Notes: generated by a model not told the origin, from the sequence alone. A stretch of 57,614 bases of DNA from a virus (IMGVR_UViG_3300028844_006223:1-57614), one strand, 5' to 3'; shown: positions 1 to 57,614, counted from the stretch's first letter. Numbers and translations: made by a program.

Positions 1-1224
1 ATGAAATCATTTAGTACATATTTAAAAGATACATTTATATTTTCAGAAGGGGGAAATTGCCCCGTGATCTCAAGGGAAACAGGTAAGGTCTTAGCCTCTG
101 CTGACCGAGTTGATATGAGCAAGGTCAATCGTGGTCAACTACAAAGTCATTTGATCAGTTTGTTCAAGGTTCTCAACACAAAGTTTCAAGCTAAGAACAA
201 AGAACCAATTTGGAAAAACTTTGAAGTTGTAACATCAGGACGGGCATTCAATGGTTCAAGTGAACATTTCATGGACAAAGAAATCAGTGATGAAGAATTT
301 CGAGAAGAAAAGAAAACAATGGGAGATGTTGATATCACCATTCCTCACAAATATCTCAAGCCATTGTTTGATTTGCTTGCTGACCATGAGAATCAAAGAC
401 TAACAAAAGATTTCATCTACCTTGGTCAGAACAAGAAAGAACAGCATGGTCATCAAATCAATGCCGTCTTTCAATTGCAAGAACCAAAAATCAACATGCA
501 GATTGATTTTGAAGGAACTGGATATACAGACAAGGATGAGCCTGATGAGTTTGCAAAGTTCTCACATAGTTCAAACTGGGAAGATGTTCGTGCGGGTATC
601 AAGGGCTTAGGACACAAGCATTTGCTTGTAAACATTGCTCGAGCACTGTCTGAGATCAAAAATGCAGTGGTGTTGACACCATCATCACCAGTTGAACCTC
701 CAGAAAAAATCAAGATTTCAAAGTCAGCCTCTGCACAAATGCCTACCAACCTAGCCTTTTCTGTTGATCGTGGTGTTCGTACAAAGTATGAGCCTGTCAA
801 AAATTCAAAAGGAGAGCTTGTTAAAGTTGATGGTAAGCAGGCTTTTCGTGAGCTTGCTACTTCCGATAGCAAATATGAAACAAACGTGCCAGCAATCTAT
901 ACAATGATATTTAATGAGAAGCCAGACAATGAGGACCTATCAAACTTTCGAAGCCTCTCTGGTATTTTAAGATTGTTCAAGAAACATAATGTTGAGAAAC
1001 GTTTGGTTGAAAATGTCTTTCGGTTCATGATTGATAAAAGTTTCTTTGGTAGAGGCTCGCAAGGTACAGATTCAAAGAGTGCAGAAAATGATTATGAAGT
1101 TAAGATGACGATTCTAAATAAAATGATTCAAGAATTTCCATATTTAAAATCAATTCTTGAAAGTAAAGAAAAACAAATTAAAGCATACGTTGATAATTAT
1201 AAAACAGTAGAGAAAAAAGACTAA
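1..1224 (+). CDS. Candidate injected nucleotidyltransferase with capsid-targeting-like N-terminus
   Basis: A 407-residue protein. Residues 1-17 (M-K-S-F-S-T-Y-L-K-D... F-S-E-G) match the N-terminal pattern shared by several proteins here and by T4 internal head proteins. The body looks like a Pol-beta-type nucleotidyltransferase: T-S-G at 78-80 followed by N-G-S-S, then G-D-V-D at 108-111 supplying two metal-binding aspartates, and a third candidate aspartate in M-Q-I-D-F-E near 169. The rest is helical and charged with no domain I recognise. The next gene starts on the last base of its stop codon (TAATG), so the two are probably co-translated. The ATG is the first base of the window, so no ribosome site can be checked. 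The fold call is inference from the motif pattern, and the substrate is unknown. Confidence 0.75.
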   Translation: MKSFSTYLKDTFIFSEGGNCPVISRETGKVLASADRVDMSKVNRGQLQSHLISLFKVLNTKFQAKNKEPIWKNFEVVTSGRAFNGSSEHFMDKEISDEEFREEKKTMGDVDITIPHKYLKPLFDLLADHENQRLTKDFIYLGQNKKEQHGHQINAVFQLQEPKINMQIDFEGTGYTDKDEPDEFAKFSHSSNWEDVRAGIKGLGHKHLLVNIARALSEIKNAVVLTPSSPVEPPEKIKISKSASAQMPTNLAFSVDRGVRTKYEPVKNSKGELVKVDGKQAFRELATSDSKYETNVPAIYTMIFNEKPDNEDLSNFRSLSGILRLFKKHNVEKRLVENVFRFMIDKSFFGRGSQGTDSKSAENDYEVKMTILNKMIQEFPYLKSILESKEKQIKAYVDNYKTVEKKD

Positions 1225-2801
1225 TGAAATCCTTCCGCAATTTTTTTATTCGCTCAGATTTTTTTGTTGAGGCTGCAAGTGATTCAATGCTTGACATTTC
1301 AATTCCAAATGCAGATAAAACTTTTAATGGCAAACTTCATTTATTTTTTGATACAGAATTTAAGATTGAAGAAAAAACAGACGGTGTAAAGCTTACATTG
1401 TTTCGTAATGATGAGGCATATAATCCAAAAGATTTTAGTGCAAATTGGATTGTAGCTTATAAAAACAATGTCTTACATCCAAATGAATTCAAAAAGACCA
1501 ACACCAAGAAAGTTGTCAAGTCAGGTATTGGTGTCACACAATACAAATTAGTGTTTGAACATCTCAAAGCAATTCATAAGAATCTTGAATCAGTACCAAA
1601 GAATACAGAATTCTTTATTGAATTTCTGATGACAAAACCAACCTTGACTAGATCATATGATCATAAGCATGGAATGATTTTGATTGGATATTCTCACAAT
1701 GTAACTGTAGAAACTCAGACAGAGTTTCGCCTCTACACAAAAGACGCAAAGTTAAATCAAAAGCAGAATGAACATTATGCTGAATTACTTGAACTTGATC
1801 TACCAGCACAATTGTTCAAAGGGAAAGTTGACACTTTTGAAAACTTGCTTCGAGGTGTAGAAAACTCAAATCTAAAATCTGCAGTCAACAAGCATAAGAC
1901 AGACCTCAAGGATTTATACAAGAGGTCTGATTGGGATGACCTATATCAGAAAATCAAAGAAATCTTTTTGTCAGTCACAAGTTTCTATGGCGGAACTACA
2001 GAAGGTGTAGTCTTGCATGATGTGAATTCAGGAAAGATTTACAAGTTTCTACAAGCAGATCAACATGATAAAGAAACAAGACAAAAAGTAAAAGACAAAT
2101 ATAAAATGTCAAAGGAAGAAGAGAACAAGTATTATGAGCAATTAAAAGAGATTGCAACTGACATTTTAAACGAGATTGATTTGGATAGACCATTTACACA
2201 AGTGATTGACGAAGTATCTGCTGCCGTGCAGAAGGTGAAGTTTCCTCAAAAACTTCATGCAAAGAAAAATGACCATCAAGTTCGTGAAGATTTGCATTTG
2301 ACAACCAAAATGAAATATGAAAAAATGCTGAAAGGTTGGGCAGGTGTTGTGGGTAAATTCCGAATCATCACGAAAGAACATGTGAAAATGATTGAATATG
2401 CTGTTGAAAAATATAAAGGTGCAACTGTCATGCTTGTTACTGGCGCCCGTGATAAGAAGCTTGCACAGGTGAATATGGAAATCCTAAAAGAAATTTTCAA
2501 TGGTAAACCTGTAGAAATAATCTCAGGATCAAATGGTAATATTATCTCTCTGGAAAGAAAGACAAGAAATCCAATTGTTACTTATGTGTGTGGTCCAGAT
2601 CGTGAAGAGGACTATAAAAAACAATTAGAGAATGCAAACAATGATTCTGTTGTCGATGTGTATGATAGTGGTAAGAGAGATTCAGTTTCTGCCTCATTAG
2701 CAGAAAAGATGGTACGAAGAGGTGATATGCAACAAGTCAAACGCATTGTACATCCTGTTGCATATGAACATATTGATAAGTGGAGAAATTTTTATCTTTG
2801 A
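1224..2801 (+). CDS. Fusion of ligase-type nucleotidyltransferase and NMNAT-like domain, capsid-targeting-like N-terminus
   Basis: A 525-residue protein. The N-terminus M-K-S-F-R-N-F-F... F-F-V-E-A matches the shared internal-protein-like pattern, with a possible cleavage after E16. Residues about 45-280 carry motifs of the DNA/RNA ligase and capping-enzyme superfamily: K51-T-D-G (motif I, the lysine that would be adenylylated), an F-F-I-E-F strand near 130 (motif III), E260-G-V-V-L (motif IV) and Y-K-F near 273-275 (motif V). Residues about 375-510 resemble a HIGH-type nucleotidyltransferase (NMNAT family), with G-K-F at 377-379, H386 and S-A-S-L-A-E-K-M near 489, which recalls the usual S-A-T-x-I-R motif. 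It could belong to RNA repair or be an injected modifying enzyme. The motif matches are visible; the activity is inferred. Confidence 0.7.
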   Translation: MKSFRNFFIRSDFFVEAASDSMLDISIPNADKTFNGKLHLFFDTEFKIEEKTDGVKLTLFRNDEAYNPKDFSANWIVAYKNNVLHPNEFKKTNTKKVVKSGIGVTQYKLVFEHLKAIHKNLESVPKNTEFFIEFLMTKPTLTRSYDHKHGMILIGYSHNVTVETQTEFRLYTKDAKLNQKQNEHYAELLELDLPAQLFKGKVDTFENLLRGVENSNLKSAVNKHKTDLKDLYKRSDWDDLYQKIKEIFLSVTSFYGGTTEGVVLHDVNSGKIYKFLQADQHDKETRQKVKDKYKMSKEEENKYYEQLKEIATDILNEIDLDRPFTQVIDEVSAAVQKVKFPQKLHAKKNDHQVREDLHLTTKMKYEKMLKGWAGVVGKFRIITKEHVKMIEYAVEKYKGATVMLVTGARDKKLAQVNMEILKEIFNGKPVEIISGSNGNIISLERKTRNPIVTYVCGPDREEDYKKQLENANNDSVVDVYDSGKRDSVSASLAEKMVRRGDMQQVKRIVHPVAYEHIDKWRNFYL

Positions 2802-17918: not shown

Positions 17919-18610
17919 AAAAATTTTTAGACCGTGGAACTATTATAATTGAAAAAGAAAAAAATGAAACATATTATAATGAATTTCCATTTCATCTTGT
18001 TGTATATCATGATGTTTTTGCTCCTGAATTATTGACAGAAGTTGCCGAAATATCAAAACAATTATTATGGTTCTTTGACCATTATGATAAAGGTACAATA
18101 AAGAAGCCAACTGGTGCAGTTTTTAATTTTGACAATTTTAAAGGAGCGTCAAAACAACAACGATATTTACAATCAGCAGAAAAGGAGTTTCCAGCTTTTA
18201 AAGATTTTTTACTTATGCTGACTGAAATTGATTATACAATATTAGAAATTTTAAATAATGATTATCCTGAATTTCCAATAAATACTGATAACTATAAAGA
18301 AAACCTTATTCAAAATTTGATTAATTGGTTTCAATCAAATGAAAACCCAATATTACATACAGATGGTGGAATTCTGTCAACACTAACACCCTATGTTGTT
18401 GATAGAGTTGATTTTGATTTGTATAATTCTCGAGGAGAAACAGAGTTCTTAGTGCAAAATAAAACACATATGGTAGGTACACTTCCAAGAAATGGAGATG
18501 TTGTTGTGTTTAGTGGACAAATACGGCATCGTGGAAATGGATGTATTGATAATATTCGAAGATATTCATATGTGTCTACATATAAACACCCAAAAGAAAA
18601 AAGAGATTGA
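17915..18610 (+). CDS. 2-oxoglutarate/Fe(II)-dependent oxygenase
   Basis: A 231-residue protein of the prolyl-4-hydroxylase-like class. The iron triad is visible as H-T-D-G-G (H-x-D) and a distal H in V-V-F-S-G-Q-I-R-H-R-G-N, with R-R-Y-S-Y-V supplying the basic residue for 2-oxoglutarate. I took the ATG at 17915, which overlaps the upstream stop as ATGA. Such oxygenases are common in marine T4-like phages; targets are unknown. Downstream, the kinase gene starts within its stop codon. Confidence 0.8.
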   Translation: MKKFLDRGTIIIEKEKNETYYNEFPFHLVVYHDVFAPELLTEVAEISKQLLWFFDHYDKGTIKKPTGAVFNFDNFKGASKQQRYLQSAEKEFPAFKDFLLMLTEIDYTILEILNNDYPEFPINTDNYKENLIQNLINWFQSNENPILHTDGGILSTLTPYVVDRVDFDLYNSRGETEFLVQNKTHMVGTLPRNGDVVVFSGQIRHRGNGCIDNIRRYSYVSTYKHPKEKRD

Positions 18611-19230
18611 AACATATTATATTTGTAAGAGGTTTGCCCGGTTCAGGGAAAACAACTCTAGCTACAAGACTTGCACAGAAATGTAATTCAAAGTTTTTTG
18701 AAGCAGATCAATTTATGGTTGACCAGCATGGTAACTATAAATTTGACATTCGCAAACTTGGCTATGCACACAAACAATGTTTAATTGATGGCTTAAAATA
18801 TCTAGCAAGAAATCAAACAGTTATATTTTCAAATACCTTTGTTACCATTCGTGACTTTGTACCTTACATTCGTGAGATACAAAATTTTAAATCTATAAAT
18901 TTAACTGCAAATAATTTTGTTGCAAATTCAAATAATTCAATTATTGAACTACGAGAGAATTGTGGAGATCCAATATCGGTCCGAACAATTTGGCGTCCAT
19001 CAGAACCGCCAATTACAGATACCGATCTAACCACATATCCTAAAGTAGAACCAAATCTCGACAATATTAAAATTACAATTTATCAACCAGGATATCATGG
19101 TACTTCTGTGCATAATGTTCCAGAGCAAACTATGGAGAACTACAGAAGAAAATGGATACCTACTACAACAATTACCCAACACTTCAAAAGGAATTTAAAG
19201 AAAGCAGATATACAATACAATATCTTATAA
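18607..19230 (+). CDS. Polynucleotide 5'-kinase (kinase half of split T4 Pnkp)
   Basis: A 207-residue P-loop kinase with a TTG start that overlaps the upstream stop (TTGA). Walker A is G-L-P-G-S-G-K-T-T near residue 9, similar to the G-C-P-G-S-G-K-S of T4 polynucleotide kinase. An acidic F-E-A-D-Q-F follows near 32. The C-terminal part G-T-S-V-H-N-V-P-E-Q-T-M matches the x-V-H-x-V-P-x-x-x-x-x-x-M motif of that family. T4 Pnkp carries kinase and 3'-phosphatase in one chain; here the phosphatase is the next gene. Role: repair of RNA or DNA ends, for example after host anticodon nuclease attack. Confidence 0.75.
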   Translation: MKHIIFVRGLPGSGKTTLATRLAQKCNSKFFEADQFMVDQHGNYKFDIRKLGYAHKQCLIDGLKYLARNQTVIFSNTFVTIRDFVPYIREIQNFKSINLTANNFVANSNNSIIELRENCGDPISVRTIWRPSEPPITDTDLTTYPKVEPNLDNIKITIYQPGYHGTSVHNVPEQTMENYRRKWIPTTTITQHFKRNLKKADIQYNIL

Positions 19231-25700: not shown

Positions 25701-26261
25701 ATGCAAAGTTATTCAGAATTTATTTCATCATTCGTTTTATCTGAAAAGAAAAAGAAAAAAGATGATGATGACTTCCTTAGTGATTTAGATCAATCCGATG
25801 AAGAAGAATCTGATGATGCAGATGCCGGAGAAGAGGATGAAGACGGAGAAGAAAGTTCTGAAGATGCACCACCTGAAGAAGAACCGAGTGAAGAAGAACC
25901 AGAGGAGGCAGACGGTCTTCAAGATGGCGAAGATGGCAAAGATGATGCTAAAAAGGATGACGATAAAAACGATGAAAAGAAAGTTGATGCTCAACAGACC
26001 AACATTGAGAAACAAGCAGTAAAGAACGTTTCAAAGAAACTTAAACCAGATGAAAATGAAATTGAAGACGATGATGTTGAAGATGATATTGAAGATGAAA
26101 TAGATTATCTTGAAGATGATGAAGAGCGAAATAGTAAAATGTCTTATGCAGATAAGAAAAAAGAAAAAGTAATGCAGAAGAAAGAAACAAAAGACCGAGA
26201 TGAAAATAAAGTCAAGGTAGTTATTAATCCCAGTTTAACAGAACATTTAAACAATTGGTAA
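25701..26261 (+). CDS. Highly acidic protein with capsid-targeting-like N-terminus, candidate prohead core protein
   Basis: A 186-residue protein. The N-terminus M-Q-S-Y-S-E-F-I... V-L-S-E matches the shared internal-protein-like pattern, with a possible cleavage after E19. Most of residues 25-145 are Asp, Glu, Lys and Pro in low-complexity runs, such as E-E-E-P-S-E-E-E-P-E-E. T4 prohead core proteins gp67 and gp68 are similarly small and acidic and are cut by the gp21 protease. A scaffold or internal-core role is therefore the best guess. No enzyme domain. Confidence 0.7.
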   Translation: MQSYSEFISSFVLSEKKKKKDDDDFLSDLDQSDEEESDDADAGEEDEDGEESSEDAPPEEEPSEEEPEEADGLQDGEDGKDDAKKDDDKNDEKKVDAQQTNIEKQAVKNVSKKLKPDENEIEDDDVEDDIEDEIDYLEDDEERNSKMSYADKKKEKVMQKKETKDRDENKVKVVINPSLTEHLNNW

Positions 26262-32029: not shown

Positions 32030-34294
32030 ATGAGTGCCCAGATTTTGACGTTGCCAAATCAGAAGGATTCATTTTACGGTGTCACTATTACTGAAGACCG
32101 TAATGAACTTCTGTCTGAGATGGCAGTTAAAATGCTGAGTCAATTTTATTGTGATGATGGTGAAACACCACAAGAAGCATTTGCAAGGACTGCACTTTGT
32201 TTTTCTGATGGTGATACAGAATTAGCACAAAGATTATATGATGGTGTGTCAAAAGGTTGGTTTATGTTTGCCTCACCTGTATTATCAAATTCAGTATTAC
32301 CGGGCATTAAACCAAAAGCAATGCCAATATCATGCTTTCTTTTGGACATACAAGACAATTTAGAATCAATTATAGACCACTCAACTGAAGTTCGGTGGTT
32401 ATCAGTCAAGGGAGGAGGAATCGGAGCCAACTGGTCCAAGGTCCGTTCCGTATCAAACAAAGCTCCAGGACCTATGCCATTCTTACATACAATTGATGCG
32501 GACATGATAGCATACCGACAAGGTAAATGCTATCTACCAACAACACAAGTTCTCACAGACGATGGCTGGTGTAGGTTTGAAGATCTAACACCAGACAAAA
32601 GAGTAGCACAACTTGATGAAGAAGGAATTTCTTCTTGGGTTCCTGCTGATAAAATTGTGATGGAACCTCATAAAGGTGTGATGTATCGTTTTACAAATGA
32701 TAAAGATGTTTGTATTACAGTAACACCAGACCATTCAATGGTAATTTTCAACGGTGAAGGAGAGTCAAAGAAAGTTCGTGCTGAACATCTGTATCAATAT
32801 GATGATTGGTTTATTATGAAAGCAGAACAACTTCATGTTGGATTAACAGTATCTTGCAACAAAGAAGCAGTGCCGATCTATTCACTTCGTAAGTTCTCAT
32901 TTGATTGGGATGCTCTCGTATATTGCGTAACTGTACCAACAGGTAGAATTATGGTTCGTGATAGTCCACTCTTTGAGCCTATCATTTGTGGTAATACTCG
33001 CAAGGGTTCACTTTGTGCATTTCTTGATATCTCACATCCCGACATTATAGAATTCATTCACATGCGAGTACCAACTGGTGATGTGAATCGAAAAAATCTC
33101 AACCTTCATCATTCAATCAACATACCTGATGAATTCATGAGAGCAGTTGAGCGAGATGAAATGTGGGACTTGATCGATCCAAATGATGATACAGTTCGTG
33201 ATACAATTCGTGCGAGAGAGTTATGGGAAACTCTTCTCGAAATTCGATATCGTACAGGTGAGCCATGTATTCATTTTATTTCTGAATCAAATCGTCATCT
33301 ACCGCAATCACTTAAAGATCAAGGACTACGAATTAATAGTTCAAATCTTTGTCAGGAAATCACACTACCTACAAATGATGAAAGAACAGCAGTTTGTTGC
33401 TTATCATCATTGAATCTAGACAAGTTTGATGAGTGGAGAGATACATCACTTGTTGAAGATATGATCACAATGCTTGATAATGTTCTTCAATTCTTTATTG
33501 AACATGCACCAGATGAATTATCAAAAGCAAGATATTCTGCAACAAGAGAACGTTCATTAGGACTTGGTGCAATGGGCTTTCATTCTTGGCTACAGAAAAA
33601 CAATATTGCTTGGGAAAGTGAAAATGCAAGAGTTGAAAATGAAAGAATATTCTATCATATTGATCGTAAAGCAAAAGAGCAGACACACCGATTGGGTCAA
33701 CAAAAAGGTGAGTACCTTGACGGTGAGGGTACAGGAAGACGTAATGCACATCTGACTGCCATTGCGCCGAATGCTAACTCTGGTATGCTGCTTGGAGTCT
33801 CACCATCAATCGAACCATACAATGCCAATACATACACTCAAAGATCAAGAATTGGTTCTTATTTAATTAAAAATCCGTATCTTGCTAAAGTGTTGGCAAA
33901 GTATAATAAGAATACAGATGCAACATGGTCAAACATCATGTTGAATCGTGGGTCAGTTCAACACTTAAAGTTTCTATCTGACCATGAAAAGGCTGTATTT
34001 AAAACCGCAATGGAATTAGATCAAGCTACAGTTGTTCAACATGCTGCAGATCGACAAAAGTATATTGAGCAAGGTCAATCTGTAAATCTATTCTTTCCTG
34101 CTAAAATGGACAAGGCGAGTCTATTAAAGGTTCACTATTTCGCATGGAAAAATAAACTTAAAACTTTATACTATCTACGAACAGAAGCTGAACATCGTGT
34201 TGAAAATGTTTCATCAAAAGTTGAAAGAGATGCTTTGCGAGACTACGTTGACAAATCAGCGGAAGGAGATGAATGTCTGGATTGTCAGGGCTAA
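32030..34294 (+). CDS. nrdA: Ribonucleotide reductase alpha subunit NrdA with in-frame mini-intein
   Basis: 754 residues as encoded and 598 after removing a 156-residue intein. It is the aerobic class I large subunit, which reduces ribonucleotides. The redox cysteines are P-I-S-C-F (early), N-L-C-Q-E (with the catalytic Cys and Glu) and V-C-C-L-S-S-L-N-L. The radical-transfer tyrosines appear as L-Y-Y-L-R-T, and a C-x-x-C lies at the C-terminus (E-C-L-D-C-Q-G). The host sequence resumes as R-Q-G-K / T-R-K-G, the position of loop 2 in E. coli NrdA (R-G-G-A region), which links substrate and effector sites. The next gene begins within its last codons. Partner: the Grx-NrdB fusion at 34968. Confidence 0.93.
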   Translation: MSAQILTLPNQKDSFYGVTITEDRNELLSEMAVKMLSQFYCDDGETPQEAFARTALCFSDGDTELAQRLYDGVSKGWFMFASPVLSNSVLPGIKPKAMPISCFLLDIQDNLESIIDHSTEVRWLSVKGGGIGANWSKVRSVSNKAPGPMPFLHTIDADMIAYRQGKCYLPTTQVLTDDGWCRFEDLTPDKRVAQLDEEGISSWVPADKIVMEPHKGVMYRFTNDKDVCITVTPDHSMVIFNGEGESKKVRAEHLYQYDDWFIMKAEQLHVGLTVSCNKEAVPIYSLRKFSFDWDALVYCVTVPTGRIMVRDSPLFEPIICGNTRKGSLCAFLDISHPDIIEFIHMRVPTGDVNRKNLNLHHSINIPDEFMRAVERDEMWDLIDPNDDTVRDTIRARELWETLLEIRYRTGEPCIHFISESNRHLPQSLKDQGLRINSSNLCQEITLPTNDERTAVCCLSSLNLDKFDEWRDTSLVEDMITMLDNVLQFFIEHAPDELSKARYSATRERSLGLGAMGFHSWLQKNNIAWESENARVENERIFYHIDRKAKEQTHRLGQQKGEYLDGEGTGRRNAHLTAIAPNANSGMLLGVSPSIEPYNANTYTQRSRIGSYLIKNPYLAKVLAKYNKNTDATWSNIMLNRGSVQHLKFLSDHEKAVFKTAMELDQATVVQHAADRQKYIEQGQSVNLFFPAKMDKASLLKVHYFAWKNKLKTLYYLRTEAEHRVENVSSKVERDALRDYVDKSAEGDECLDCQG
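32528..32995 (+). mobile_element. Mini-intein in NrdA (156 residues, no homing endonuclease)
   Basis: An in-frame self-splicing element at NrdA residues 167-322. Block A is C-Y-L-P-T-T-Q-V-L-T-D-D-G-W starting with Cys1. Block B is I-T-V-T-P-D-H-S-M with the T-x-x-H core. Block F is V-Y-C-V-T-V-P-T-G-R-I. Block G ends P-I-I-C-G-N followed by extein Thr. The usual penultimate His is Gly here. At 156 residues there is no room for a homing endonuclease, so it can splice but not home by itself. Joining K166 to T323 restores an unbroken NrdA sequence. Confidence 0.88.
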
Positions 34295-38537: not shown

Positions 38538-39608
38538 TTATTTTTTCTTTATCTCTCTTAAATATCTCGATATGATTCGTGTGTCCTTTTCAAGCTCATC
38601 ATAATCAAGGACTTTGATTGGAAACTTAAATTGACTTTTCCATTCATGTAATGTTTTACCAATCTTTTTGACATCATTGATCGCATCATCGGTCATAAAG
38701 CAATACACAATCTCAAAATCACTCACTACAATTTCATCATAATCAATACTTTTTTCTCTTTTCTTAACATTCTTTTTTGCTACAGTAGCAGGCCACTTTA
38801 ATACATACTCAACAAAGATTGATTTCCATTCATCTTTGCTTGTGATGATTTTTTCCATCTCATCTAGATATTTCTTAATATACTGTTGCTTGACTGCACC
38901 CGGTATATCGTGCTTTCGAAGTGTTGCATACTTCTCTTCACCTTTGTTTTTCGCAGGTTCTCTTTTCGATTCGTATTTATTTCTCAGTTCATCAACCAAC
39001 TTATCTTTCATTTGCCTCAATGCAAAAAGCAATGCTGATACTGTTTGAATTGAATAAGAGTCACCACGAAATACTGCCTCTGGTGTAATTGCTCCATTTC
39101 CAATATCAAGAACTCGTTTACCTTGTTTGTCAACTTTGCTCATAATATCTTGGTCAAGACCACCAACAGCCTGACCTTTGACAATTGCAATTACGCCACC
39201 ACCATTATCAGACCAAATACCATCAACAAGTGTACCAAAATTATCAACCGTATAAGTTGAAATTTGTTTTGTTCTTCTCTTTTGTATCTTTAATAAGTTT
39301 TCAAGTCCTTTAACACCTGTTGAATGTGCTGCAGTAATTTTAATTGCAGAAGTAAATCTTTCAAATAATCTTGCATTTAATGGTATATTAAATGCACGGT
39401 CTCCTTTTTTCTGAAAGATATATTGTGTCCTCTCTGTTGCAAATCCTTTTGAGTTAATATCCTTTTCATCATTTTCATCATAACTTGGATCACCAAATTG
39501 ATCTGCAGCAATCAAAGCTTCCGATTCATAGAACAAATGATCAAACAATGACCTTTGCCATTGAACCTTTTCAATAAGGTATTCAGTAAAGCTATTGAAT
39601 GTTTTCAC
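38538..39608 (-). CDS. Candidate injected protein with capsid-targeting-like N-terminus (unknown domain)
   Basis: A 356-residue protein with a GTG start forming a GTGA overlap with the ADP-ribosyltransferase gene. The N-terminus M-K-T-F-N-S-F-T-E-Y-L-I-E-K fits the shared pattern, with L-I-E as likely cleavage site. Residues 60-200 include G-D-R-A-F-N-I-P-L-N-A-R-L-F-E-R and G-G-V-I-A-I-V-K-G-Q-A-V-G-G-L. The C-terminus is basic and helical, with I-V-Y-C-F-M-T-D-D-A and K-F-P-I-K-V-L-D-Y-D-E-L. I do not recognise the domain. Operon context suggests co-packaging with its neighbours. Confidence 0.65.
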   Translation of the reverse strand: MKTFNSFTEYLIEKVQWQRSLFDHLFYESEALIAADQFGDPSYDENDEKDINSKGFATERTQYIFQKKGDRAFNIPLNARLFERFTSAIKITAAHSTGVKGLENLLKIQKRRTKQISTYTVDNFGTLVDGIWSDNGGGVIAIVKGQAVGGLDQDIMSKVDKQGKRVLDIGNGAITPEAVFRGDSYSIQTVSALLFALRQMKDKLVDELRNKYESKREPAKNKGEEKYATLRKHDIPGAVKQQYIKKYLDEMEKIITSKDEWKSIFVEYVLKWPATVAKKNVKKREKSIDYDEIVVSDFEIVYCFMTDDAINDVKKIGKTLHEWKSQFKFPIKVLDYDELEKDTRIISRYLREIKKK

Positions 39609-40462
39609 GGGTCAAATCCCCATTCAGCAAGTGAGTTACCATCCGTATATACATCTTTTGCTTTTACTTTTTTACTGATAATACGGAACTTGTTATTTAG
39701 ATTGTCCTGTCCATGTTCCTTTGCATACTGGCGCACGATTGTTACCCAATCACCAGGATTGATGCTATCAATGTTTTCAACTTTAGCATTACTTTTCTTG
39801 ACTTTTTCTTCTTCGTCACCTAACCATTCATAATATTTTTTTGAGCCAAGTTTTTGATATTCTTTTTGAAACTCAGGATGGACTTTGTTTCTTCTCATCC
39901 ACATTGCTTGTGCTTTCTCAAGTGCGTCGAGTCTTTCCTCTTTTGTTTGATTGTGAGGTACTGCACGATAGATCGTTACCTGTCTGTTTGGCTTGTTACG
40001 ATATCCATTCACAACCAATGCTGCATCTTTCTCTTCTTTTGTTCCAGCATATTCTGTCCAGCGGTCATAGTAGTCTTTAGGATATACTTCATTGTGTGTC
40101 ATGTCATGAAGAGGTGCTCCTTCTTTTCCTGCTGATTGATGCTCACCTTTGTAGTCTTCTGAAATGTTTTTCTTACTGACATAAGCTACTGGAATCTCTT
40201 TCATTTTATTCAACCAAAAAGCAACCATTCGATGCCTGCCTTCCATTACAAATAGATGCTTATCATTCTTTTCAACGTAAATCGGAAGTGCTTCTTCACC
40301 TCTCTTTAGCTGATTCAAAATTTTATTTGTTCTTCTTTCATCTTTTGGAAATTCATCATAAGTGCCATGCATTTCCTTTATTTGTTTTTCAAATTTTGAA
40401 ATGGGCTCTTTTTTCAATTCAACTTTTACATTGTCAGCAGAAGTTCCTAACCACTCACTCAC
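39605..40462 (-). CDS. ParB-like domain fused to ADP-ribosyltransferase
   Basis: A 285-residue protein. Residues about 15-98 are ParB/sulfiredoxin-like (L-P-I-Y-V, F-V-M-E-G-R-H-R-M-V-A-F, I-P-V-A-Y-V). Residues about 155-285 look like an R-S-E-type ADP-ribosyltransferase: V-T-I-Y-R-A-V-P supplies the Arg, N-P-G-D-W-V-T-I and Y-A-K-E-H-G the middle strand, and the end A-E-W-G-F-D-P the Glu. T4 packages the ADP-ribosyltransferase Alt, which modifies host RNA polymerase. The GTG start at 40462 overlaps the upstream stop. Nine further sense codons (S-I-T-Q-Q-D-L-K-D) precede it in frame without an ATG, so expression may be by coupling or frameshift. Confidence 0.72.
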   Translation of the reverse strand: MSEWLGTSADNVKVELKKEPISKFEKQIKEMHGTYDEFPKDERRTNKILNQLKRGEEALPIYVEKNDKHLFVMEGRHRMVAFWLNKMKEIPVAYVSKKNISEDYKGEHQSAGKEGAPLHDMTHNEVYPKDYYDRWTEYAGTKEEKDAALVVNGYRNKPNRQVTIYRAVPHNQTKEERLDALEKAQAMWMRRNKVHPEFQKEYQKLGSKKYYEWLGDEEEKVKKSNAKVENIDSINPGDWVTIVRQYAKEHGQDNLNNKFRIISKKVKAKDVYTDGNSLAEWGFDP

Positions 40463-40887
40463 ATCCTTGAGGTCTTGTTGAGTAATGCTCTACCAGCAAC
40501 TTTCATTGTATATTCTTTTGGTGTATACTTCTGCGCAATTTTTTTGTACAAACTTGTTCTTGACTTTTCTGCCGCAGAGAACTCTAGTTCTGGTGGCTTT
40601 TTCTTGGTCAAATATTCTTTGCCTACATTCAAAACAGTTGAGATGATTTTTGCTGCTTCTGGTCCTTTTTCACCAGTGATACCAAATCTACCATCTGAAT
40701 TCATGAATGTACCGATGTTCAATCTTCCATCAATATGAACATAGAATGTTTCATTATTTTTTGTTTGAAACTTTCGAACATAATCATCATCTGATGGATC
40801 TAATTTTTCAAGGTCATCATCGCTCAATTCTCGAGTCGGGTATGGATTGTCAAACAGTTCTGTGAGAAATTCGTTATAAGTTTTCAT
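40459..40887 (-). CDS. Small candidate internal head protein (paralogue 2)
   Basis: A 142-residue protein with start ATG at 40887, overlapping the upstream stop as ATGA. The N-terminus M-K-T-Y-N-E-F-L-T-E-L-F-D is very close to T4 internal proteins (M-K-T-Y-Q-E-F-I-A-E), with L-T-E as the likely gp21-type cleavage site. The rest shares I-S-T-V-L near 85 and S-R-x-x-L-Y-[KR]-[KR]-[MI] near 118 with the next gene, so the two are paralogues. The stop overlaps the GTG of the ADP-ribosyltransferase gene. Confidence 0.7.
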   Translation of the reverse strand: MKTYNEFLTELFDNPYPTRELSDDDLEKLDPSDDDYVRKFQTKNNETFYVHIDGRLNIGTFMNSDGRFGITGEKGPEAAKIISTVLNVGKEYLTKKKPPELEFSAAEKSRTSLYKKIAQKYTPKEYTMKVAGRALLNKTSRM

Positions 40888-41324
40888 TGTGGCTTCACCT
40901 TGACATTCCAACGAATAAGGCCCGAATTCCTTTTCTCTTCTGTCGATTCATATTGAGGATATTTCTTACAAAATGTTGAAATCATTCGACGATACAGTTT
41001 TACTCGACTTGGCTCTGAAGATACTGATTCAACAAAGAAATGATCGGGCTCTTCGGCATCAACAAACTTTTTGAGAATTTTTAGAACAGTTGAAAAGATT
41101 TGAAACTCTTCACCTTTACCTGACTTTGTTCCTTCTTCGTTGCTATCACTATCAAAAGTAAATTCATAAGCACCATTCTTATCAACAATTATACTGACTT
41201 CAATAAATTGACCGTTTGGTGTTTTGAATTCATAAGTTTCTTCATGATCTTCAATGCTATGAACCAATTTATATGGTAAAGGCTTGTCAAATAACTCTGA
41301 GAGTAGTTCTTTATACGTTTTCAT
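40884..41324 (-). CDS. Small candidate internal head protein (paralogue 1)
   Basis: A 146-residue protein. The N-terminus M-K-T-Y-K-E-L-L-S-E-L-F-D-K-P matches T4 internal proteins and its downstream paralogue. The body is acidic with F-T-F-D-S-D-S-N-E-E, a central I-F-S-T-V-L-K-I-L-K-K, and S-R-V-K-L-Y-R-R-M near 115. Removal of about 10 residues at L-S-E would leave a small globular protein. It starts 3 bases after the EF-hand gene's stop. Function unknown. Confidence 0.7.
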   Translation of the reverse strand: MKTYKELLSELFDKPLPYKLVHSIEDHEETYEFKTPNGQFIEVSIIVDKNGAYEFTFDSDSNEEGTKSGKGEEFQIFSTVLKILKKFVDAEEPDHFFVESVSSEPSRVKLYRRMISTFCKKYPQYESTEEKRNSGLIRWNVKVKPQ

Positions 41325-41910: not shown

Positions 41911-42559
41911 AATCCTCTATTATATCATTCAGAATTAAATCCCAAGATTTATCTGAGCCTCTAAATCCATTGTTAACTGGGTCAACATAAACAGGTTCAG
42001 TTAAAATATAACGAATTAACTTATCATGAATTTGTTTCTTATCACGGATAAGATCACCAACATCATTATATTCTGTTTCTATTTCAATTAACTTAAAAGT
42101 ATCATTGTTTATAAAAATTTTTAGGTTTTCAATTAATTTTTCATAAGTTGGATTTCGGTCTTCACCCCATCTTTTACGATGGTCATGTCCATATTTGTCT
42201 AACCATCGTATAAAAATTAAATTATTTTTTTCTTTTGTTAACAAAAGATTTTTAAACGTATGTAAAAATCGGCCTTTCGCTTCTTCTACTGTCTTGTCAT
42301 GACTAAAAATCAAACCAGTTGTTGCATCAATTGGCGTTATATCTTTTGGAGCAGAATCTCTCCATGCATTCATTGAGATTGAAAGTTGATTAATATCGTA
42401 AGAATGTGAAAATATTTTTTCCAATGAATGCAATGGTGTTATACACCAATCAAATGGATAAGAAATTGATTTCGCACCATGCTTTACTTTAAATCGATTA
42501 ATTTGCCATGCAGGACGACACCATGATCCTATAGGAATTAAACAATTAAATTTTTCCAT
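41897..42559 (-). CDS. DUF1796-like protein, putative papain-like peptidase
   Basis: A 220-residue protein. The N-terminus I-P-I-G-S-W-C-R-P-A-W-Q, followed by S-Y-P-F-D-W-C-I-T-P near 35, fits the DUF1796 pattern (conserved early Cys, then P-F-D-W). Later H-D-K-T and F-I-R-W-L-D-K-Y-G. Members occur in surface-sugar clusters; peptidase activity is only a family suggestion. It overlaps both neighbours by about 14 bases. Confidence 0.6.
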   Translation of the reverse strand: MEKFNCLIPIGSWCRPAWQINRFKVKHGAKSISYPFDWCITPLHSLEKIFSHSYDINQLSISMNAWRDSAPKDITPIDATTGLIFSHDKTVEEAKGRFLHTFKNLLLTKEKNNLIFIRWLDKYGHDHRKRWGEDRNPTYEKLIENLKIFINNDTFKLIEIETEYNDVGDLIRDKKQIHDKLIRYILTEPVYVDPVNNGFRGSDKSWDLILNDIIEDYGKL

Positions 42560-42944
42560 CTTTTTTCATTTGCTCCCTTATTTTGGTAGCAGATACATCA
42601 TGAATATCTTGAGGAGGAACATGTTCAATAATATCATAACCAACGCCACGACCATAGTTAACTGATTCGATGTCAGGCACGATTGTAGCAATCACTCGGC
42701 CGTCTGCAAACAAATCCCATAGTTCATTCTTAACGTTGTCAAGGATCTGTTCTGCAGTCCAAGGATTGATTTCATCTGGCTTGACATCACGAATTGCAAT
42801 CCAAACATTCTTGCCTTCATTCAATCTTTGATCAATCAACCAACGATGACCGGCATGCCAAGGTTGCCAACGTCCAAAGAATACTGAATATTTCTTTTCC
42901 GAACTTGATGTTTCTTTATCTGCCTTTGCTTTAAAATCTGCCAT
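42546..42944 (-). CDS. HIGH-motif nucleotidyltransferase (cytidylyltransferase-like)
   Basis: A 132-residue protein. F-F-G-R-W-Q-P-W-H-A-G-H near 22-33 is the nucleotide-binding motif, and V-S-A-T-K-I-R near 119 the C-terminal signature of the NMNAT, cytidylyltransferase and ATP-sulfurylase-like superfamily. It overlaps the APS-kinase-like gene by 14 bases. Paired with that gene, it could activate sulfate or a sugar phosphate. The substrate cannot be read from sequence. Confidence 0.75.
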   Translation of the reverse strand: MADFKAKADKETSSSEKKYSVFFGRWQPWHAGHRWLIDQRLNEGKNVWIAIRDVKPDEINPWTAEQILDNVKNELWDLFADGRVIATIVPDIESVNYGRGVGYDIIEHVPPQDIHDVSATKIREQMKKDGKI

Positions 42945-43395
42945 AATTTTGCTCCAAAATATCTACAATTTCTCTTACCGAATCTTCTGGTGATTTAATT
43001 GTAGTATCAATTAAATAAAAATTCTTTTCAGGTGGTTCATAATTCTCAACATGAAAATGGTCACGTTCTCTTGGTTCATCTGCAAAGATATAAAACTCAA
43101 CGATGTGATGTTTCATTCTTTCTTTAAACTCTTCACGAAGCCAACGATATGGTGAAACCAATGATACGATTACATTCATATCTTTGTTATGACAAAACTC
43201 GGCAATCATCTGAGCATTGCGAATGTTGTTAATTCTTCCCTGTTCGGAATAATCTTTGTTAACAGTAAGTTTTCTTAGATCATCTCCATCTACCTGAACG
43301 GTCGGTTTATTATTTTTTAACCATAAAGTATCTTTGAATAAATTTGACAAAACAGTTTTTCCATGTCCTGGTTGTCCAGTCATCCAATAAATCAT
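42931..43395 (-). CDS. cysC: Adenylylsulfate (APS) kinase-like protein
   Basis: A 154-residue P-loop kinase. Walker A is G-Q-P-G-H-G-K-T near 7. D-G-D-D-L-R near 37, Y-S-E-Q-G-R-I-N-N-I-R-N-A near 48 and the I-V-S-L-V-S-P-Y-R strand are the APS kinase pattern. APS kinase makes PAPS, the sulfate donor of sulfotransferases, and this operon encodes two sulfotransferase-like proteins. The usual region near 105 (F-I-F-A-D-E-P-R-E-R-D) is shorter than in CysC. Confidence 0.78.
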   Translation of the reverse strand: MIYWMTGQPGHGKTVLSNLFKDTLWLKNNKPTVQVDGDDLRKLTVNKDYSEQGRINNIRNAQMIAEFCHNKDMNVIVSLVSPYRWLREEFKERMKHHIVEFYIFADEPRERDHFHVENYEPPEKNFYLIDTTIKSPEDSVREIVDILEQNYGRF

Positions 43396-55218: not shown

Positions 55219-57614
55219 ATGCAATCTTTTTCAAGTTTTTTCAAGGAAACAATTCTTGAATTAGCTATGGATCCATCCATGGCTTTGATGGCACAAGGAA
55301 GTATTGATACAGTTAAACATGCAAAGTATAAATTTAAACCAGGTGGAAAACTTGGAGATCCGAAAGGTGAAATCTTTATGCTCATGACACCAAAACAATT
55401 TTATGAAAATGAAGAGGCAGAAGGCCGATTGAAAAAAGAAAATAAGGCTACGCTGAGTGAAAACTACTGGCAAGATCTAGTAGCAATGAAATATACTTCA
55501 GAACGTGACTATAAAAGCTGGGGTGATAATGTTCGTAATCGTATGCAAATCATCAAGAACATTCCTAACTTCAATGAAGAACAATTAAAAACGAATGTTC
55601 GTACCTTCAATAAAATGCAAAAAGATGCCTTTGATAATTATTCAGGTGCATACAATTCACAAACAGAAAAAAGATTTCAAGCAAAAAGAGAAGGTGCCGT
55701 ACAAAAGAATTTCAAACAAGATCTATTCAAACAACTTGAAGATAAAAACATTCTTGATGATAAAGTTAAAAGCACATATGAAGTTGGTCTTAATTTAGAC
55801 CATTTACAAGATTCAAAGTTTATTAAACTATTGATGAAATCATTGCAAGTTGAAGCAGGTCTCATCAAAGGTACTTATAAAGATCCTGCAGTGAACAAGC
55901 CATTACTGCATGGTTCTGCAATGATGGATGGTAATTTACAAGTCAATGATGAACAAGTATTGATTGACTACATCATGGGTAAAGATGTACCTTATGATGG
56001 TATCGTAAGAAATATCTTTAAAGACAATGGTGAACAACTATCAAAGAGTGAAGTCAAAGAATTGTTTACAGCAATGGGTGATGAAGTCAAATCATTGACT
56101 GACAAAGGTATGGATAAAGAAAAAGCGATCAAGCAAGTGATTGGTAACTATGCTAAAAAATCAAAAGATGGTGGTGATGCAAAAGAAGGTGAGTTGAAAT
56201 ACTATTTCTATGATGGTCTTTCAAAAGAAGTAAGCAAGTTCAAGCAGATGTCTGAACAAGAATTGATGAGAAGATTTAAAAGTTTCAACAAATCTGTAGG
56301 ATCATTGCAAAATAGTTTTAAGAAATCTTCATTTGATCCTGGCAAATCATTGTCTCAAAATCAAAAGATGATGAAATCAATGGGCGCCTTAGGCAAGAAC
56401 AAAGAGATTTATGACTTCACGCTGCCAGCGTACAAGGGCTTGGTGTATATGGAAAGGCCATGGAAGGACGTATATGGAAATATGCAGAAACCCGGCCTCG
56501 CAATCATAAACACCTGTCCTTCTGCGGCGCTTTGTAAATCTTTCTGTTATGCAACAAAAGGTTTTTACACAATGTATTCTTCTCCATCAATTAGTGCTGC
56601 ACAAGTTCTAACCTATCTTGTCAATCATCCAGCTGAATTCGAAAAGCAAGTAACAAACTATCTATCTCAACTTCATGGAAAGTCAAAGAAAGAAGTTGTT
56701 ATTCGCTGGCATGATGCAGGAGACTTCTTCTCTCGATCATATTATAATATGATCATGCGCATTGCAGCAAAGACACCAGACTTGTTGCACTATGCTTATA
56801 CAAAACGAGTTGAAATGATTCATGAAGTTGTCACAGGTAAAGACTTCAAAGGTGGTAAGGTGCAAGGTCTATCAAAGATACCTGACAACTTTGTTTTCAA
56901 TCTAAGTTATGGTGGTACATATGATGCGAAGATATCAAAGGTACCTGAACTTGCAGAATTTAAATTCTCAAAGGTTATTGATCTATCGATACCTGTCACT
57001 GAAGAATATGAACATGTCATGAAACGGGATGTGCTTGATAAGAGTTTTGTTGACAAAGCACACAAATTAGGAGATGAATATCATAATTCAGTTACTGTAA
57101 AAACTGTGACTGAAAAAATCAAGTCATTGACACATGAAGGCAAAGTACATAAAGATGTGACTGTACATAAGAAAATCCTAGAGTTTCATTACATTCCAAA
57201 ACTTGCTGTATTACCAGCACACACAATGGAAGAATTTATCAAACGAAACAAAGAAGTATTGGATACATTTCATAATCTTGATCATCATAATGTATTCCAT
57301 AAGATGTTTGATGAAGCAAGAGGACATCAGCATAGTAGAGTTACATTTGATGAAAAGTGGGTCAAGAAGAATCTAAGTTCAGAAGAAAAGAAGAAGCTTG
57401 AAGATCAATATCCTTCTTTATATAAAACTTATCTACCTGGTCCTATTCTTGATATTTACAAAAAAGCAATTCAAAAGTATTATGGTTTCAATAAACCAAT
57501 TTTAACATATGATGAAATGATTTCGCAAAGTGAGAATAAAACAGAACGAAATAAATATCATGTACTTGTTTCAACAAACGATGGGGACGTTTCGGCGCAA
57601 CGGCGAGACATTCA
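55219..57614 (+). CDS. Large Gp88-domain protein with capsid-targeting-like N-terminus (partial, cut by window end)
   Basis: At least 798 residues, open to the last base. The ATG at 55219 follows A-A-G-G-A-A. The N-terminus M-Q-S-F-S-S-F-F-K-E-T-I-L-E-L fits the shared pattern, with F-K-E or I-L-E as possible cleavage site. Residues about 20-400 are helical and lysine rich. From about 415 comes a domain like phage gene product 88: C433-x5-C439-x3-C443-Y-A, then A-A-Q-V-L near 460, and I-R-W-H-D-A-G-D-F-F near 495. The three cysteines suggest a metal or iron-sulfur site. Gp88 proteins I know of are much shorter, so this looks like a fusion. Read from a late promoter. Confidence 0.78.
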   Translation, partial: MQSFSSFFKETILELAMDPSMALMAQGSIDTVKHAKYKFKPGGKLGDPKGEIFMLMTPKQFYENEEAEGRLKKENKATLSENYWQDLVAMKYTSERDYKSWGDNVRNRMQIIKNIPNFNEEQLKTNVRTFNKMQKDAFDNYSGAYNSQTEKRFQAKREGAVQKNFKQDLFKQLEDKNILDDKVKSTYEVGLNLDHLQDSKFIKLLMKSLQVEAGLIKGTYKDPAVNKPLLHGSAMMDGNLQVNDEQVLIDYIMGKDVPYDGIVRNIFKDNGEQLSKSEVKELFTAMGDEVKSLTDKGMDKEKAIKQVIGNYAKKSKDGGDAKEGELKYYFYDGLSKEVSKFKQMSEQELMRRFKSFNKSVGSLQNSFKKSSFDPGKSLSQNQKMMKSMGALGKNKEIYDFTLPAYKGLVYMERPWKDVYGNMQKPGLAIINTCPSAALCKSFCYATKGFYTMYSSPSISAAQVLTYLVNHPAEFEKQVTNYLSQLHGKSKKEVVIRWHDAGDFFSRSYYNMIMRIAAKTPDLLHYAYTKRVEMIHEVVTGKDFKGGKVQGLSKIPDNFVFNLSYGGTYDAKISKVPELAEFKFSKVIDLSIPVTEEYEHVMKRDVLDKSFVDKAHKLGDEYHNSVTVKTVTEKIKSLTHEGKVHKDVTVHKKILEFHYIPKLAVLPAHTMEEFIKRNKEVLDTFHNLDHHNVFHKMFDEARGHQHSRVTFDEKWVKKNLSSEEKKKLEDQYPSLYKTYLPGPILDIYKKAIQKYYGFNKPILTYDEMISQSENKTERNKYHVLVSTNDGDVSAQRRDI

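Follow-up and report, generated by a model that had tools for sequence, protein, structure and literature searches.

The first two genes of IMGVR_UViG_3300028844_006223:1-57614, a 57,614-nucleotide stretch of DNA (hereafter the window, meaning this whole stretch) from a marine T4-like phage, may encode the central part of an RNA end-repair module that in this lineage is loaded into the phage head, a reading to which we give an about even chance of being right. The DNA polymerase of this phage shares ~41% identity with cyanophage polymerases. The first gene, NT (1-1224, + strand, 407 aa), encodes a predicted nucleotidyltransferase of the Pol-beta superfamily, and the second, LIG (1224-2801, + strand, 525 aa), a predicted fusion of an RNA ligase with a degenerate domain of the HIGH nucleotidyltransferase superfamily. 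Both open reading frames lie where a first-pass annotation of this DNA had placed them, and the NT stop and LIG start share one base within a TAATG overlap (1222-1226, +), making translational coupling probable; in six related loci (L013, L023, L026, L027, L032 and L033) the two genes overlap by at least 4 bases in locus coordinates, the overlap being of 4 bases in L013, L032 and L033. Their family matches are phrog_19290 for NT (2e-55) and phrog_27149 for LIG (2e-67), both PHROGs of unknown function, and searches of the two window proteins against Pfam, NCBIfam, PADLOC and PDB sequences returned nothing meaningful above chance, the weak matches to M-Ras and DUF1529 being dismissed as chance. 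The parts are of known kinds; what appears to be new is a ligase-HIGH fusion behind a head-targeting-like signal and paired with a Pol-beta nucleotidyltransferase. No earlier description of such a pair was found in the literature searched, which is not proof that none exists.

AlphaFold2 models were built from the window proteins together with fetched relatives. The NT model (pLDDT 89) is disordered only in its first 15-21 residues and its C-terminal tail, and its best Foldseek matches are DNA Pol beta and mu (E 1.3e-3, probability up to 1.00). The relatives aligned with it were taken from single-pass searches; an iterated profile had drifted into the ligase family, probably through mixed inclusion. 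Across the resulting 33 sequences, which share 27-52% identity with the window protein, near-identical copies aside, G85 and S86 (253-258), D109 and D111 of the metal-binding D109-V-D111 (325-333) and D169 in QIDFE (505-507) do not vary wherever they are covered. The GDVD motif and later Asp noticed in the first-pass annotation are thus real and kept in the relatives, the GS motif upstream of them is an addition, and the modelled fold is the one that had been proposed. Site (G-S...D-x-D...D) and predicted fold together indicate that NT belongs to the Pol-beta nucleotidyltransferase superfamily; as the Pol beta and mu matches have low TM scores, the superfamily is clear and the substrate is not. 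Within this superfamily a functional parallel is RlaP, likewise a Pol-beta-type enzyme that accompanies RNA ligases in large phages and is predicted to restore nucleotides before ligation (PMC7824862). Unlike RlaP, NT and its relatives do not match PF10127: this profile found nothing among 23 NT members at E 0.1, nor at the NT genes in the phage records searched, and membership of NT in the RlaP family was rejected. Moreover, the phage of locus L017 carries a separate RlaP gene, ~6 kb from its ligase gene.

The LIG model (pLDDT 87, disordered only in the first 15-21 residues) has T4 RNA ligase 2 (Rnl2, gp24.1; 2hvr) as its top Foldseek match against the PDB (E 5e-7, probability 1.00), followed by phosphopantetheine adenylyltransferases (PPAT; 4f3r, TM 0.77 on the target), and the editing ligase TbREL1 was also matched. 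The Rnl2-like adenylyltransferase domain (aa 22-280, 1287-2063) holds motif I K51-T-D-G54 (1374-1385), motif III Glu133 (1620-1622), motif IV E260-G261 (2001-2006) and motif V Lys274 (2043-2045), and K51, D53, G54, E133, E260, G261 and K274 are unvarying across 23 fused LIG proteins. In NT and LIG alike, the catalytic residues are kept at an identity of ~30%. The ligase-type adenylation site reported in the first-pass annotation is therefore genuine, K51 being kept in 23/23, and prediction and structure search recovered the ligase and HIGH-superfamily folds suggested there. These motifs mark LIG as a putative covalent nucleotidyltransferase of the ligase/capping superfamily. Residues 281-370 (2064-2333) are all helix in the model, which accordingly lacks the OB fold found in DNA ligases and capping enzymes, leaving a predicted Rnl2-type fold with a helical C-terminal domain. 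Pfam RNA_ligase (PF09414) was matched by 8/21 LIG relatives (best E 2.6e-5), the window protein itself being unmatched. LIG thus has in common with T4 Rnl2 and PF09414 the adenylyltransferase fold, motifs I, III, IV and V and the helical C-terminal domain, and differs from T4 Rnl2 in its KxDG motif, its single motif V Lys, its fused HIGH domain and its putative N-terminal propeptide.

The C-terminal domain (aa 371-525, 2334-2798) belongs by profile and predicted fold to the HIGH superfamily, with CTP_transf_like (PF01467) matched by 18/21 LIG family members and the family profile (A3) matching nicotinamide mononucleotide adenylyltransferase (NMNAT) at 2.7e-6. In the window protein its active-site motifs are eroded: HxGH reads T383-K-E-H386 (2370-2381), and SxTxxR reads S489-A-S-L-A-E-K (2688-2708), with the Arg lost. 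Only 3/23 fused proteins (L015, L029 and L036) retain both TxGH/HxGH and the SxTxxR Arg, and none of nine proteins scanned reached an NMNAT or PPAT equivalog cut-off. The HIGH-like domain of the first-pass annotation therefore stands by profile and by fold (PPAT TM 0.77), although its motif is no longer an intact one in the window; the further step to a ligase-NMNAT fusion does not hold, the NMNAT label expressing fold-level resemblance only and an NMNAT identity being not established. Because the equivalog cut-offs are not reached and the motifs are eroded, LIG is better called an RNA ligase with a degenerate HIGH domain, which in the window would be expected to bind rather than catalyse. The domain has its fold and residual motifs in common with NMNAT, PPAT and the phage genes annotated 'cyt(it)idyltransferase', and is related to the stand-alone HIGH proteins of Xanthomonas phage X1 and locus L045, which retain HSGH/HKGH and the arginine; unlike these stand-alone enzymes, it is fused to a ligase and degenerate. 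Within a large sugar/glycosyl cluster on the - strand (~42-53 kb), the window also encodes a small cytidylyltransferase-like protein with an intact HAGH (42549-43395, - strand), next to a P-loop (APS-kinase-like) gene.

Homologues were found by tblastn in 22 phage records for NT and 21 for LIG, from Campylobacter Firehammervirus (the CP220 group) and Vibrio phages of the pv27, Va1 and phiKT1024 types, Xanthomonas X1 having NT only; they are annotated as hypothetical or with a bare nucleotidylyl-transferase domain note. Scans of IMG/VR gave 20 NT and 23 LIG loci, and one scan of cellular genomes found no cellular homologues of the pair. The ligase-HIGH architecture, unfamiliar to the first-pass annotation, is indeed unnamed in annotations but not unique to this phage, given that 21 sequenced phage records encode it. 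CP220 gp026 and gp100 and pv27 CDS0281 and CDS0276 are true homologues, with 29-35% identity over most of their length; unlike in the window, the CP220 pair is not adjacent and its ligase has no extension, and the Vibrio pair has neither extension. The two genes lie on the same strand within ~3.2 kb of each other in ~20 contigs, and their divergences are correlated (Mantel r 0.58, with 0/10,000 permutations as high). At L048:4991-9141, two NT paralogues stand in tandem, and the gene behind them encodes a 650-aa ligase-HIGH protein that has an additional region at its C-terminus.

In published RNA-repair systems, a ligase is accompanied by a Pol-beta nucleotidyltransferase and an end-modifying enzyme (PMC7824862), and the genes around the NT-LIG pair are of this type. 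Seven loci have a P-loop kinase (AAA_33/zeta-like) in the vicinity of the pair, and in L033 the kinase and the ligase form one protein. At L036:1812-4753 the ligase-HIGH gene is directly followed by a PolyA_pol+HD gene, that is, a CCA-adding-type, tRNA-nucleotidyltransferase-like one. In X1 and in L043/L045, the ligase-motif and HIGH parts are encoded by two separate genes behind NT; these split ligases align with the LIG family with motifs I and III in register, weakly (hhalign E 0.013, probability 3%), and, being linked by motifs and this weak alignment only, are counterparts and not proven homologues. The L016-L021 group and CP220 have, 2-6 kb downstream, a gp30-type DNA ligase as a gene of its own, from which it follows that LIG is not the replicative ligase. 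Together, the kinase, the CCA-adding-type enzyme, the split genes and the separate DNA ligase point to the repair of RNA (tRNA) ends. The L033 fusion (L033:7269-9236) is a triple one, consisting of the P-loop kinase, an internal stretch resembling a capsid-targeting sequence (CTS; SFNTFF...IIE/S, the slash marking the putative cleavage point), the RNA ligase and the HIGH domain, and is a candidate single-chain repair enzyme. In the window itself, a P-loop kinase with weak similarity to a polynucleotide-kinase PHROG (18607-19227, +) sits in the replication gene cluster and may supply the module with its 5' kinase. The small c0-cluster proteins beside the ligase in the L014-L021 group were considered as stand-alone HIGH genes and rejected, Pfam and alignment showing them to be P-loop kinases.

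The evidence for loading into the head comes from the N-termini. NT opens MKSFSTYLKDTFIFSE/GGN and LIG opens MKSFRNFFIRSDFFVE/AAS; the first 16 residues of each (1-48 and 1224-1271, +) are disordered in the models and form putative capsid-targeting propeptides, that of NT resembling the N-termini of the T4 internal proteins (IPs) and probably being cleaved after Glu16. The Gly-Gly-Asn that follows (aa 17-19, 49-57) would be the mature N-terminus. It is invariant in 31/31 sequences and occurs near the start of all NT sequences that include the start, where start codons and ribosome sites were also checked. The residue before it is the initiator Met in 20 sequences, whose start is not in doubt because an upstream stop is usually only a few codons off, and the other 13 are extended. 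In 11/13 of the extended forms, from several lineages, Glu precedes GGN (background 7%), and 10/11 Glu-bearing extensions have Leu/Ile at P3 ([LI]xE/G), the eleventh being the window, with Phe. Met removal in the one group and proteolysis in the other would yield the same GGN terminus, which is strong circumstantial evidence of processing. The LIG extension is absent in the Vibrio and CP220 relatives and in others ends in E/A or E/S.

These features recall T4, whose prohead protease gp21 cuts after [LI]xE and in whose capsid-targeting sequence residues 4 and 7 govern targeting (PMC9026906). The window proteins start MKSFSTY (NT) and MKSFRNF (LIG), with aromatic residues at positions 4 and 7, compared with MKTYQEFIAE/A in T4 IPII and IPIII and MKTFKEF in IPI. 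In common with IPI-III and Alt they would thus have a small propeptide cut after Glu, the window cleavage being a predicted one, and with the IPs the start MK[ST][FY]xx[FY]; unlike with the T4 internal proteins, the predicted cargo is an RNA-ligase-like enzyme and a nucleotidyltransferase. The internal-protein-like N-terminus read from both proteins in the first-pass annotation finds support across the window, where the start M[KQ][ST][FY]xx[FYL] occurs in 7/65 genes against 0.016 expected. A match to the T4-type head protease family was found in CP220, X1 and pv27 and in five metagenomic records, of which three exceed the cut-off; no head genes, the protease included, were detected among the window genes scanned. 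Most likely, the NT and LIG extensions are propeptides of the kind removed by a T4-type prohead protease, and both proteins would then be packaged in the head.

The five further window genes with such a start lie at 25701-26258 (+), 38541-39608 (-), 40462-40911 (-), 40887-41324 (-) and 55219-57612 (+), and begin MQSYSEF, V/MKTFNSF, MKTYNEF, MKTYKEL and MQSFSSF. The gene at 34273, which matches acetyltransferase PHROGs, has KSFSTFITE a few residues in. The phage may therefore package many proteins. Outside this lineage, a 'cytidyltransferase' of Synechococcus phage ACG-2014f (L078:5695-6909) opens MAMRSFLTFLTE/A, a start which suggests that head targeting may extend to the stand-alone HIGH enzymes of cyanophages.

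From these observations, we infer the following course of events. The Pol-beta-fold NT would add one or more nucleotides to a damaged 3' end, and the Rnl2-fold protein would self-adenylate on K51, transfer the AMP to a 5'-phosphate and seal the strand, the likeliest substrate being a cleaved tRNA or another structured RNA. In the relatives, the 5'-phosphate would be regenerated by the P-loop kinase that adjoins the ligase or is joined to it in one protein. The HIGH domain would be a former adenylyltransferase; having lost catalytic residues in this phage, it probably serves only to bind nucleotide or RNA or to keep the complex assembled. In the window lineage and several others, the T4-CTS-like signal on both proteins would be cut after Glu by the prohead protease, and the enzymes would enter the head and be injected together with the phage DNA. 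Packaged and injected in this way, they could begin repair without delay when the host cleaves RNA as a defence. More specifically, and only tentatively, we suggest a virion-delivered RNA-repair kit that mends the cuts of host anticodon nucleases or other RNases before phage gene expression, with the conserved, proteolytically exposed GGN of NT as part of the mechanism.

Several observations weigh against the RNA-repair reading. No tRNA genes were found in the window or in 29 loci scanned. The TM of NT to its nearest solved structures, which are DNA polymerases, is low (0.2-0.26), and NT matches no Pfam family, RlaP included. Aligned by hhalign with the single T4 Rnl2 sequence, the LIG family gave no match; its motif I is KxDG where T4 Rnl2 has KxHG, and its motif V lacks the second Lys. 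In the Campylobacter phages, and only there, the NT and LIG genes are far apart, and the correlated divergence of the two proteins is also predicted by shared descent alone. As to packaging, P3 in the window is Phe at both predicted sites (FSE/G and FVE/A) and not Leu/Ile, L044/L045 carry Cys before GGN, and in the nearest relative, whose 146-kb contig is probably incomplete, neither a head protease nor a capsid gene was detected.

Three other enzymatic readings remain, in the order DNA repair, protein nucleotidylation and NAD+ (nicotinamide adenine dinucleotide) synthesis, and a separate, partly independent doubt concerns the extensions. Short-patch repair works by combining a polymerase with a ligase, and a Pol-X-like polymerase and a ligase could be packaged to mend gaps and nicks in the incoming phage genome, as the closeness of NT to the solved folds of DNA Pol beta and mu would allow. 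Nevertheless, we regard this as unlikely: LIG resembles RNA ligases and has no OB domain, a separate gp30-type DNA ligase is encoded close by in several of these phages, and the neighbours of the pair include a CCA-adding-type enzyme and kinases. Quite improbable in our estimation is the view of the first-pass annotation, by which the two proteins are effectors injected to nucleotidylate targets in the host, by AMPylation or a similar reaction. Protein AMPylation is known among Pol-beta-fold enzymes, and the ligase fold self-adenylates. T4, moreover, injects its ADP-ribosyltransferase Alt with its DNA (PMC9026906). This view nonetheless leaves the ligase helical domain and the repair-type neighbours unexplained, no similarity to a PADLOC model was found, and solved AMPylators are not among the top fold matches of NT. 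The statement that both enzymes attach nucleotides to a target was hence too general: with T4 RNA ligase 2 as the closest fold and an RNA end-repair gene context, the sealing of nucleic acid is likelier than the nucleotidylation of a host protein.

A role in NAD+ or cofactor metabolism, in which the HIGH domain would make NAD+ as an NMNAT against NADase defences or recycle nicotinamide mononucleotide (NMN) for an NAD+-using ligase, seems to us the least probable of the three. The profile similarity to NMNAT and PPAT speaks for it, and phages are known to have NMNAT activity in the form of NadM/NadR (PMC9503650), whereas the erosion of the motifs in the window and most fused relatives, the failure to reach the equivalog cut-off and the apparent lack, in the LIG model, of a helical NMN-binding Ia domain ahead of the ligase speak against it. 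The doubt about the extensions can be combined with any enzymatic reading: they could be lineage-specific tails and not packaging signals, the enzymes acting only after expression in the infected cell. The extension is absent from many relatives, among them Vibrio phages that have a T4-type head protease, and these evidently work without it. We consider this somewhat unlikely, in view of the excess of Glu at -1 over its background in several lineages, the near-constant Leu/Ile at P3 and the same N-terminal pattern on seven window genes.

The enzymes of known phage RNA repair, such as T4 Pnkp/Rnl1 and the RlaP systems, are understood to be produced within the infected cell. If RNA end repair by a head-loaded NT and LIG is the correct reading, the enzymes would travel in the head and be at work before any phage gene is read, which would be a way to pre-empt RNA-cutting defences. 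The rule of Met1 or xE before GGN would offer a sequence-only handle for recognizing processed internal proteins outside the T4 group. The reading would also be the first functional hypothesis for two PHROG families of unknown function and for genes in well-studied Campylobacter and Vibrio phages.

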